Assembly: GCA_027022065.1 (NCBI GenBank)
Contig: JALVZS010000059.1
Span: 1-12,142, forward strand
Reading direction: 5' to 3'
From: a bacterium
GTDB taxonomy: Bacteria; Thermosulfidibacterota; Thermosulfidibacteria; Thermosulfidibacterales; Thermosulfidibacteraceae
DNA length: 12,142 nt
Each line of letters begins with the position of its first letter. Position 1 is the stretch's first letter. The translations under genes and the position numbers were made by a program. The notes beneath the pieces were generated by a model that saw only the letters and a program-made list of their open reading frames with translations, searched no databases and was not told where the DNA came from. Shown one piece after another: positions 5,899 to 12,142 of this stretch.

Positions 5899-8800
5899 GG
5901 GGGTTTCTAGGATTTTGTTTAATTTTACTTTTCTTGGGTTGCTTGAATGTTAATGTGGTGTTGTCTGCCTCTATGACTAATTACTGTGCTGTTCCTCCTT
6001 TTCTGAGTAGGGTTCTTCCGCCTAATGTTATGATAATTTTGGATAATTCAGGCTCAATGTTTAATTTCGCTTATAACTACAGAGGTGAAGATGTTAGCTA
6101 TGGCTTTGATTCTGCTAAAAAGTATTATGGATATTTCAATCCAGATTATTGGTATAAATATGAAAACGGAAAGTTTATAGCAACTGCTAAAAAAGATAGT
6201 AGATCAAAAGAGGATGATGAATGGGATGGGAACTTCTTAAATTGGCTTACTATGAGAAGGATAGATATTGCTAGAAAGGTTTTGACTGGGGGGAAATATG
6301 TCAATGGTTATTTAGTAGGTGAGGAAGCGGATGGTAAAGGTAGAGGTTATATAAAAAGAGTCGATAATGCAGAGTATTATACCCCTTATACTGGAACGAT
6401 AGACTTTACATTTGATCTGGGAAGTGGAGGTGTTTCTAAGTTTGAAGTATGTCATCGGGAAATGAGGAGGTGGGGTTGGGGAGAAATATGTGAGGAGTAT
6501 AATGTTAAAATTCAAGTTTCTGCTAGGCCAGTGGGGGTTATTCAAAAAATTGGTAATAAAGTAAGATGGGGACTAGCTTTTTATCATGTAAATATATACG
6601 ACAACGGTGGATATATATCAGTACCTATATCATATAACAACACAAGTGAATTGGTGGAAAAAATAAATGAAAAACGACCAGATTCTAACACTCCTTTGGC
6701 AGAAACCTTGTGGACTGTAGTAGGGTATTTTGCTCAGAAGGATAAGATGCTAAATGGTCCAGGACCTAGATATCAAGAGGGAGATTATCAGATAGACACA
6801 AGTGTTGACCCTTACAACTACGGCACAGCGGATAATCCTGTAATGGCCTGGTGTGCTAAAAGCTTTGTCATTTATATAACTGATGGAGAACCGTGCGGAG
6901 ACGATGAGCTACCTGAAGGTTTGAAAAACTATGCTGAGAATAATGGAGGTTGTTCTTATGACGGCAGTTTACCAACTTGCAGAGCGGGGGGTAATAAGCC
7001 TTGGGTTCAAGATGTTGCCTTATATGCGCACACCAACGACCTTAGAAGCGATTTGAGGGGTAACCAGACACTAACTATATACACTATATTTGCTTTTGGT
7101 GAAGGATCAGGTTTGCTAAATTGCACAGCAATAAATGGCGGTTTTGAAGACATAAATAGAGACGGCAAACCATCATCAAGAGAAGAATGGGATAGAAACG
7201 GAGATGGAGTCCCTGATAATTATTTTGTAGCTAGTAACGGTTATGAGCTAGAAGAAGCCCTTGAAAACGTGCTTACCGATATCTTGCGCCGTGCTTCTTC
7301 GGGAACAGCTGTAAGTGTTCTTTCCGAAAAATCCCAAATGGAAATGTTTGCATACCAGGCTGTGTTTTATCCTGAAAAAACTTTATCTGTTGGCCGAAAG
7401 ATTACCTGGACAGGTTACCTTTACACCTGGTGGCTCTTCAACTCTATGTTGTGCCAAAACATAAGGGAGGACACAAAAAACGACAAAATCCTGGAGCTTG
7501 CCTATGACAGAGTCCTTGACTGGAAGCTGGATTCATCTGGCCACCTGAAGATAGTTGCCTACTTAACAAATGAGGACGGCTGCACCAATTCTACCGCTGG
7601 GGGAATAGTTACCTACAACTCCTTTGATGAGACTCATCCTCTCATAGAGGCAGGAAGTAAGTTGGCCAGTGAAGGACCGGCTGATAGAAAGATTTACACT
7701 GTTTCTTCCAAAAACGAATTGGTTGAGTTCACTGTTGCCAACAAAAGTAAATTTTCGCAGTATCTGGGAAATTCAGATAATTTTCCGTATTGTTTGATTT
7801 CTCAGGTATCTAATAAAGATGAGCGTGTAAATAAACTTATAGAGTTTATAAGAGGTAATGATGTTGGTAAATGTAGAAGTAGAAAGATAGACGATGCTGG
7901 CCATACATGGAAGCTGGGAGACATTATATATTCAACGCCTGCCGCTGCTGAGTATGGTAATTACACCGTGGTCTTCGTTGGGGCAAATGATGGGATGCTT
8001 CACGCCTTTAAAGTGGGCTATCTCAAAAAAGGTTTCTTCTCTCCGACTAAGCTCTGCGAGGATAAAAACTCCTGCGGGGATACTACATTAGGTAAAGAAC
8101 TTTGGGCATTTATTCCTAAAAACGCTCTTCCCTATCTCCGGTACCTAATGGATCCAAATTATTGCCACATATACTATGTGGATCTTCCTCCCTATCTCAT
8201 CCTCGTAAACGGAAAGCGCATACTTATAGGCGGCATGAGATTTGGAGGCGGAACAAGTGTGGTGCATCCACCTGAGGATACCTGCCCTGATGTTAACTCA
8301 GAAAACTGCACGGGCCTATCTTCCTACTTTGCCCTTGATGTTACTGATCCTGAAAATCCTAAGTTCTTGTGGGAGTTTACGGATCCTCACCTCGGATTTG
8401 CCTATTCAGGCCCTGCCCATATCACCTACAGAGGCAAGCACTTTATACTATTTGCCTCAGGTCCTACAAATTATGATGGAACTTCGGATCAGGACTTGAG
8501 ATTTTTCGTTTTGGAGCTTGATGGTGATGGGAAGATAGCAGGGAAGTATGTTATTGATAAAAACGTGGCTTCTACTCTTGCTTCATTTAAAAACGCTTTT
8601 GGTGGCAGGTTGTTTACTGAAGGCATAGACTACAATGAGGATGGGAATACAGACATGGTTTTCGTAGGCGTTAGTTATTGCACAGGTTCAGAATGGCAGG
8701 GTAATGTAATTGGCATAGGCATAAACGGCGATGATCCTACAAGATGGGATTATGTAAAAGTGTTCAATAGCGCAATTAAACCCGTTACTGCGAAGATAGA

Positions 8801-10250: not shown

Positions 10251-11182
10251 GCGATAGCCACAAACAGCAGGGCTTTTCCCTTGTGGAGTTGATGGTTGTG
10301 ATAGTGATAATAATGATCCTAATGGCAGCTGCTTATTCTGGGTTTACAAATGTTATGAAAAATACCAAGCAGGAAAGCGAAAAAGTTGCTTCTCACATAG
10401 AGCAGATTGCTCTTCAGGTGTTGAGGCTTGATATTGAACATATGGGTTATGGAATAGCTTCTGATGAAACTTCTCCTATAGTTGAGTGGGATGCCAACAG
10501 TAAGAGACTCACCATTAGATCAACTATTAATAACACAAATAGAGATACAAGGGACTACTTAATACTAAAGTGCAAAGCAGGTAGTTTGAAGCTTGTAGAG
10601 GCAGGCTGCAACTTGGAATCTGGCTGGTATGCTTTGCTTAACGCTAGAACAAAGTCATATGTAGGAGATGTAAAACTCAGCTCCAGAGGAGATATAATTT
10701 CTGGCAATTCAACCTGTTCAGGTACGGATGTTTATGTAGCATTCCCTATAAGGGATAAGGTTGAAAGTGGTGAAGCTAATGGCTGTGATGTTGGAAAGTG
10801 CGAAAGGATACAGTATTATTTAAGCGATAGTCCTTTAATTTCTAGGTGCAATCCTCACACTCACAGCCTTCTGAGGAAGGTTGGAAACGGGACTGGTGAA
10901 CCTGTTATCAACTGTATTGCTGATTGGGATGTGAAGTTTGATAGTTTAACCTTTCCTGCTGATAATAAAAAAATACGTGAGTACCTTAGGTTAGTCAGAG
11001 TTTATATAGTAGCTCAGGAAGGCAAAAAGGATTTAAATTATAAGTATATAGGAAATAGAACAATCACCGTTGATGATGTAACTTTGTTCCTGCCTAATGA
11101 TTATGAGCATTACAGATGGAGGGTAATAAGGCTTTTCGTTAAACCAATGAACTTGTATGGGAGAAAAAGTGAGAGCAAATAA
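10244..11182 (+). CDS. pilW: PilW/GspJ-like minor type IV prepilin
   Basis: At 312 residues this is the largest minor pilin in the set, as expected for PilW. The leader MVSDSHKQQG is followed by FSLVELMVVIVIIMILMAAA, with Phe1 and Glu5 in place. After the helix comes a segment typical of PilW (LQVLRLDIEHMGYGIA), then a large beta-rich domain with seven cysteines and an NSTCSG element. PilW is expected to pair with PilX and PilV below PilY1 at the pilus tip and to help start assembly. The ATG overlaps the preceding stop by seven bases, with at best a weak Shine-Dalgarno. The end overlaps the start of the next gene. The family is confident from size, N-terminus and order. Confidence 0.83.
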   Translation: MVSDSHKQQGFSLVELMVVIVIIMILMAAAYSGFTNVMKNTKQESEKVASHIEQIALQVLRLDIEHMGYGIASDETSPIVEWDANSKRLTIRSTINNTNRDTRDYLILKCKAGSLKLVEAGCNLESGWYALLNARTKSYVGDVKLSSRGDIISGNSTCSGTDVYVAFPIRDKVESGEANGCDVGKCERIQYYLSDSPLISRCNPHTHSLLRKVGNGTGEPVINCIADWDVKFDSLTFPADNKKIREYLRLVRVYIVAQEGKKDLNYKYIGNRTITVDDVTLFLPNDYEHYRWRVIRLFVKPMNLYGRKSESK

Positions 11183-11576
11183 CGAAGGAATAGTTTTGGT
11201 GATAGTGCTTATACTAAGTCTAGTTTGCCTGCTTCTAATATTAGGGCTTTTTTATATGCTTAGAACTTCTACCGCTATTTCTGGTTCTGTCAAAAGATAT
11301 ACTACTGCACTTGAGGCTGCTAAAGGTACTATCAACCTTATAATAGCCGCTATTCAGGAGGGAATTGAGTTTGATTGTAATTCCACAAATTCTACGGAAG
11401 GATGTTCAGTAACTTTGCCTATCAGTAGATTGGGGGATTATGAAATCAACGCATGCCTTTTGAATAAAGAACAATTTTTGCAAGCCAAAGCTATTACCAC
11501 TGTATATACTTTCAGAGTAAAAGCCAAAAGATTAAACGAAGAGGCAGTAATAGATTTTGTATACAGATATCCCTAA
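11169..11576 (+). CDS. pilX: PilX/GspK-like minor pilin component lacking Glu5
   Basis: A 135-residue protein with a short leader ending NNEG, then IVLVIVLILSLVCLLLILGL, followed by LRTSTAISGSVKRYTTALEAAKG. This matches PilX N-terminal style: a very hydrophobic helix without the Glu5 found in other pilins, as in tip-located GspK. The globular domain is small (about 100 residues) and has a Cys-bracketed Asn/Ser/Thr loop (11376-11405). I choose GTG at 11169 because GGGAG stands five bases upstream and the start has the same GTGAG form as thiL, pilY1 and the first pilin gene. An in-frame ATG at 11157 has no Shine-Dalgarno and would add four residues. It overlaps pilW by 14 bases and ends the + strand pilus block, 11 bases before the tRNA scar. 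No separate terminator is visible. Confidence 0.78.
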   Translation: MRANNEGIVLVIVLILSLVCLLLILGLFYMLRTSTAISGSVKRYTTALEAAKGTINLIIAAIQEGIEFDCNSTNSTEGCSVTLPISRLGDYEINACLLNKEQFLQAKAITTVYTFRVKAKRLNEEAVIDFVYRYP

Positions 11577-11587
11577 TCTGCCTTTCT

Positions 11588-11635
11588 TGGCTGGGGCGCC
11601 AGGATTCGAACCTGGGAATGGCGGATCCAAAGTCC
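11588..11635 (-). pseudogene. 3' half of tRNA-Gln(UUG): probable integration scar (att site)
   Basis: Read on the minus strand, this has in order: part of the 5' anticodon stem (GGA), loop CTTTGGA with anticodon TTG, 3' stem TCCGC, a five-base variable region, a perfect T-arm (CCAGG, TTCGAAT, CCTGG), acceptor strand CGCCCCA, discriminator G and an encoded CCA. It closely matches the 3' half of bacterial tRNA-Gln. The 5' half is missing: upstream there is no TGGGGCG acceptor strand or D-arm, and pairing in the anticodon stem fails after three base pairs. A truncated tRNA beginning in the anticodon arm is the classic leftover of a tyrosine-recombinase insertion. By that geometry the inserted DNA lies at higher coordinates, with an intact tRNA-Gln at its far end. 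It cannot be a working tRNA. Confidence 0.85.
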
Positions 11636-11904
11636 TTGATAGCGCATTTTTAGTAGGTTTTAGCTTTGTTGGTGAAATTGCTAAGCCTTTGAAAATCAAG
11701 CACTTTCAGTTTCAATCATGTTTGTTTGTAATGTTTCTTCACAATGCCGTTGGAACCCTAAATGGAACCCCGTGGAACCCTCTAGCTAGTCCGCAAGCCA
11801 TGCGCTTGTGCAGCAAGGATGCTATTGCTGCCTCAATACGGCAGCTGCAATTAGGCTGTTAAGGACAGAGGGATTATTCGTTGGGTGGTTGGATACATGC
11901 CTGT
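11636..11904. other. Non-coding, repeat-rich stretch beside the tRNA scar
   Basis: No convincing gene is present on either strand. A + strand open frame across 11557-11862 runs through the tRNA fragment and shows no coding character. The stretch holds an AT-rich portion (to about 11740), three TGGAACCC copies, an 8-base palindrome CTAGCTAG (11782-11789), and two short hairpins: CAAGC/GCTTG at 11794-11808 and GCTGCC/GGCAGC at 11827-11845. This organisation suits recombination-site DNA or decayed element sequence, but no recombinase fragment can be recognised. Confidence 0.5.
11751..11780. repeat. Three direct copies of TGGAACCC
   Basis: TGGAACCC occurs at 11751-11758, 11763-11770 and 11773-11780 in the same orientation, with start-to-start spacings of 12 and 10 bases, near one helical turn. 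Repeats of this size and spacing are typical of protein-binding sites. Lying about 115 bases from the tRNA att-like core, they could be recombinase arm-type sites; that role is inference. Confidence 0.6.
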
Positions 11905-11973
11905 CTAAAGGCTCCTATTATCCTCCAGAAGGCTCCAAAGCCACTCTTCATCTTCCCACCACCTACGCTTCAT
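11905..11973 (-). CDS. Tiny reading frame, Trp/Glu-rich, unknown
   Basis: A 22-codon minus-strand frame begins MKRRWWEDEEWLWSLLEDNR and has no recognised family. Its ATG overlaps the stop of the neighbouring small frame (ATGA), and AAGGAAG stands about nine bases upstream, so coupled translation is possible. Five tryptophans would be unusual for random sequence. It could also be the -1 frameshifted tail of one decayed gene together with the preceding frame. The short length keeps confidence low. Confidence 0.25.
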   Translation of the reverse strand: MKRRWWEDEEWLWSLLEDNRSL

Positions 11974-12059
11974 GACTCATTCTTCCTTTCCCATTCCTCA
12001 AAGTACTTCTTGACAGCCTCCAGCACTTTATCAAAGGGCGCCATTTTTACTCCAAGCAT
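11970..12059 (-). CDS. Tiny reading frame with amphipathic helix, unknown
   Basis: A 29-codon minus-strand frame whose core reads MAPFDKVLEAVKKYFEEWER, a strongly amphipathic helix with GAG, AAG and AGG codons like the housekeeping genes here. Two starts are possible: ATG at 12059, or ATG at 12044, which has GGAG five bases upstream and is better supported. The frame is also open upstream for about a dozen codons to a stop near 12095, so it may be the tail of a broken gene. It overlaps the 22-codon frame by four bases. No family is recognised. Confidence 0.3.
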   Translation of the reverse strand: MLGVKMAPFDKVLEAVKKYFEEWERKNES

Positions 12060-12141
12060 GGGTACATATACTGCTCCCCTATAGAATGGGACATAAGCTT
12101 AGTATAGTAATAAGACCCATATAGGAGGGGAGCATGGGTAC
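12055..12141. repeat. 11-base direct repeat AGCATGGGTAC
   Basis: AGCATGGGTAC occurs at 12055-12065 and 12131-12141 on the same strand, 76 bases apart. The right copy covers the ATG of a possible + strand gene; the left copy covers the start region of the small minus-strand frame. Together with the inverted repeat between them, this suggests a local duplication or paired operator. Confidence 0.55.
12072..12134. repeat. Imperfect inverted repeat flanking a divergent intergenic centre
   Basis: The left arm (12072-12090) and right arm (12116-12134) are 19 bases each and pair at 14 positions: TGCTCCCCT with AGGGGAGCA at the outer ends and ATGGG with CCCAT at the inner ends, over a 25-base AT-rich centre. 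Each arm contains a purine-rich Shine-Dalgarno reading outward, so both divergent leaders share the same sequence. Candidate -10 elements TATAGT (+, 12103-12108) and TATACT on the minus strand lie in the centre, but no -35 match is seen. It could be an operator, an RNA hairpin hiding the ribosome-binding site, or a mobile-element end. Confidence 0.5.
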
Positions 12142-12142
12142 C
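12134..12142 (+). CDS. Start of a possible + strand gene cut by the window edge
   Basis: AGGAGG (12123-12128), five bases before ATG at 12134, is the strongest Shine-Dalgarno in the right part of the window. Only three codons (Met-Gly-Thr) are visible, so the product cannot be named. If real, it diverges from the small minus-strand frames and belongs to the DNA right of the tRNA scar. Confidence 0.3.

Follow-up and report, generated by a model that had tools for sequence, protein, structure and literature searches.

The window analysed here, a stretch of 12,142 nucleotides, is the entire contig C59 of a genome that is 88% complete and distributed over 251 contigs. Close to its right end, a pilX-like minor pilin gene on the forward strand (11157..11576, stop at 11576; an ORF without a Pfam or NCBIfam match) converges on a 48-base 3′ fragment of tRNA-Gln(TTG) on the reverse strand (11588..11635), which runs from the anticodon stem-loop to the CCA and lies outside the pilX-like ORF. 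Between the pilX stop and the CCA is an 11-base host spacer (11577..11587). ARAGORN called no complete tRNA in the window, and no Rfam family scored above its gathering threshold there. A BLAST search of the window with the intact tRNA-Gln(TTG) of the same genome identified the fragment: window positions 11635-11588 equal positions 29-76 of the 76-nt gene, with 100% identity (E 2.6e-23). This exact match bears out the proposal of the sequence-only reading that a truncated tRNA-Gln retains the anticodon loop through the CCA; the coordinates, boundary description and 11-base gap to pilX given there are all correct. The 28-nt 5′ half of tRNA-Gln is represented anywhere in the window by chance 9-mers only, and a D-arm or acceptor half near the fragment, which that reading had named as evidence against its claim, was not seen. 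A split or intron-containing tRNA is ruled out, the 5′ half not being found near the fragment.

Together with its flanks, the fragment forms a block of 52 identical bases (window 11584..11635, reverse strand) matching contig C62 at 6938-6989 in 52/52 positions, which we presume to be the att core. The block extends from three bases ahead of the anticodon loop to four bases past the CCA, on the host side, so that 11584-11587 are common to the block and to the spacer. Copies are present in the genome on C62 and in the window only; a third was not found. Judged by its length and exactness, the match is not a product of chance.

As for the host side, the positional counterpart of the pilX-like gene in the relative G002 closes the same pilin operon, which there abuts another pilin gene, without any intervening tRNA sequence. 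We rejected the possibility that the tRNA piece is a conserved tail of the pilX operon, given this operon end in G002; the same truncated fragment in relatives lacking adjacent foreign DNA, the other finding that had been named as counter-evidence, was likewise not seen. The nearest genomes compared, two relatives in the same family, are members of a different genus, with other neighbours around tRNA-Gln. The polarity proposed earlier, with the resident chromosome to the left and the element to the right, fits, since the 3′ side of a displaced 3′ fragment would face pilX, as it does here.

The intact tRNA-Gln(UUG) and the integrase predicted for the far end are both present in the genome, on a different contig from the fragment. 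ARAGORN placed the intact tRNA-Gln(TTG) at C62 6910-6985, where its neighbours are tRNA-His and four further tRNA genes, the whole group lying next to tuf and the ribosomal-protein operon. On its other side, a toxin-antitoxin-like RHH/PIN pair (C62 7305-7936) separates the tRNA gene from a tyrosine integrase encoded on the reverse strand (C62 8003-9328), the ORF of which ends ~1 kb beyond the intact tRNA-Gln. The assignment of the integrase is based on Pfam PF00589 (E 2.6e-30), phrog_1 (E 2.9e-73) and the presence of all motifs carrying the catalytic R, K, HxxR, H and Y residues (TGWRIGE, TKASK, HDIRHT, GHST and LHYTH); the protein is only ~30% identical to known phage integrases, and a scan of a collection of genome contigs with the integrase as query returned distant integrases only (26-38%). 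Then come a 298-aa ORF with a weakly NinG-like end, an excisionase-family HTH protein (C62 10115-10435; TIGR01764 above cut-off), a Prim-Pol protein (C62 10453-11358; PF09250 above cut-off) and a helicase-like ORF truncated at the end of the contig, the last two together spanning 10453-11977. Searches for relatives of the Prim-Pol protein gave no match in phages or viral contigs and no convincing one in 40 other genomes. No viral relative of the helicase-like ORF was found in the viral collection, and its one match, of 28% identity, is to the Desulfohalobium plasmid pDRET01. The end of C62 matches nothing else in the genome, and a search with the C-terminal part of the pDRET01 homologue, which at 28% identity is a weak test, found no continuation of the element.

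The two contigs are also linked by a repeat, GGGTTCC. Four copies, the only ones in C62, cluster at C62 7034-7095, within 110 bases of the core; three of the window's four copies cluster at 11752-11780, ~115-145 bases from the core (11752..11758, 11764..11770 and 11774..11780, all reverse strand). All copies of both clusters lie on the tRNA strand and have the same orientation relative to the tRNA, and the first of the three window sites is contained in a 14-mer, AGGGTTCCAACGGC, that is common to both flanks. The observed GGGTTCC counts were not reached by any of 5000 shuffled versions of each flank, and any 7-mer as frequent in both flanks occurred in only 7 of 3000 shuffled flank pairs. By place and direction, the clusters look like candidate arm-type integrase sites, and they would tie the two unjoined contigs, C62 and the window, to one element.

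It is very probable that a tyrosine integrase inserted a mobile element at the anticodon region of tRNA-Gln(TTG), the ends of this element being on the unjoined contigs C62 and C59. A partial copy of tRNA-Gln arising through chance duplication, with no integrase involved, would find precedent in the partial or decayed tRNA-like copies that do occur, for example in the relatives G005 and G006; we consider this highly improbable. The breakpoint is inside the anticodon stem, and the fragment is oriented as a displaced 3′ end should be; genes for an integrase and an excisionase-family protein come after the intact tRNA-Gln, and arm-like repeats are found beside both copies. The precedent itself is a tRNA-Gln(TTG)-like sequence common to G005 and G006 (L111 1140-1220 and L112 1630-1700, respectively) that is not called by ARAGORN, lies just before a NUDIX gene and overlaps the start of its ORF, with a T stem that differs from that of these genomes' own tRNA-Gln; it may represent a second, degenerate tRNA-Gln, or else an old scar. 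We rejected these partial matches as instances of the same fragment: they are diverged and stand before the NUDIX gene rather than beside pilX, and the one in G006 has a D-arm-like part of its own.

The window ends soon after the fragment. What we presume to be the element's distal end (11636..12142) contains small ORFs only and is cut by the contig end. The element sequence recovered amounts to at least 5.5 kb, 4990 bases on C62 plus 507 in the window. A point against integration is that the presumed element has the same base composition as the adjacent host sequence. At the very end of the window, positions 12066-12142 form an imperfect, hairpin-forming 76-base palindrome; contigs C73 and C3 have similar repeats at their ends (87-91% identity). 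This repeat, either a dispersed hairpin repeat or a transposon end, probably caused the assembly break.

With the contigs unjoined and only 507 bp left beyond the fragment before the dispersed 76-bp repeat ends the contig, the fragment could also be a scar: the displacing element would since have disappeared or undergone rearrangement, and the one on C62 would represent a separate insertion at tRNA-Gln. This seems improbable, if somewhat less so than a chance duplication: an unselected fragment that still matches at 52/52 positions points to a recent event, both cores are accompanied by the same GGGTTCC cluster and the common 14-mer, and a third copy of the block was not found. For the integration of a single element, the perfect identity retained in the unselected fragment suggests that the event was recent.

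When an attP carrying the 3′ part of a tRNA gene recombines with that gene, the integrated element has a complete tRNA gene at one end, and the former 3′ part is moved to the opposite end (PMC4383910). Before integration, the tRNA-Gln would have faced pilX directly, the empty site reading CCAAGAA running into AGGCAGATTAGGG and then the pilX stop. The attP of the element would have borne a copy of the tRNA 3′ part, such that integration regenerated a full tRNA on C62, near the integrase, while the original 3′ part came to lie at the distal end (window 11584-11635), beside the resident minor-pilin operon. The resulting chromosomal order would be tuf, the tRNA genes and tRNA-Gln, followed by the element, and then the tRNA fragment and the convergent pilX operon. 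Reversal may be possible, with the integrase contacting the GGGTTCC arm sites at either side and an excisionase-family protein encoded nearby; the element may be mobile.

Integrases and displaced tRNA fragments were also seen elsewhere. The same genome encodes a second integrase (L094 9506-10603), 41% identical to that on C62; its gene lies close to the end of a contig, 86 bases past one for a chemotaxis receptor, and adjoins no tRNA. In the relative G002, contig C4 carries a 36% identical integrase (L095 7687-8910) whose gene end adjoins the 3′ end of a tRNA-Lys(CTT); it differs from the C62 case in the tRNA used and in one in-frame stop within the match, and no displaced tRNA-Lys fragment was found within the 16 kb examined. 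The unrelated genome G036 displays the same signature as C62 and the window: its contig C6 has an intact tRNA-Gln(TTG) (L116 740-813) and, 19.1 and 19.9 kb downstream on the same strand, two tRNA-Gln 3′ fragments (L117 8826-8877 and 9624-9663) that begin in or near the anticodon arm and are 97-98% identical, as would be expected of one island or of two in tandem. The 22 kb read there contained no relative of the C62 integrase.

This arrangement is what genomic islands integrated into a tDNA typically show at the anticodon subsite, with a displaced 3′ fragment; the phenomenon is a textbook one. In Islander, a tDNA and a displaced fragment mark the ends of an island, the fragment being a 3′ one in 3760 of the 3919 islands and the site being anticodon-centred in 2083 of the 3919 (PMC4383910); by these counts, the present arrangement is among the commonest. 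As with Islander tDNA islands of subsite A, one genome contains both an intact tDNA and a fragment from the end of that tDNA, a tyrosine integrase adjoins the intact tDNA (here 1 kb inside the C62 end), and the 3′ fragment includes the tDNA end, reaching the CCA, with no overlap with a conserved domain since it falls outside the pilX ORF. Islander further places both ends on the same replicon and in the same orientation, with the 3′ fragment downstream of the tDNA and 2-200 kb away; here the two ends are on separate contigs, C62 and C59, each with a compatible polarity, and in principle the arrangement does not otherwise differ from such islands. Lambda-type systems likewise combine a tyrosine integrase, an excisionase-family protein and clustered repeats on both arms, although the C62 integrase is distant from the known phage enzymes and the arm sites are putative. 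As to virion genes (terminase, capsid, portal), which would indicate a prophage, one weak match to a terminase profile (E 4e-5) was detected on a 3.2-kb contig, and the same profile matches 11 of 14 control genomes. As to a relaxase, which would indicate an integrative conjugative element, no match to the one family PF03432 was found in the genome as assembled.

This probably fixes both ends of an integrated element, in a lineage of which few relatives have been sequenced, and supplies the core and candidate arm sites of its integrase; the mode of action would be standard. Given its own replication genes (Prim-Pol and helicase-like) and its poorly sampled lineage, the integrative element might, tentatively, represent a new element family at a conventional tRNA-Gln site.
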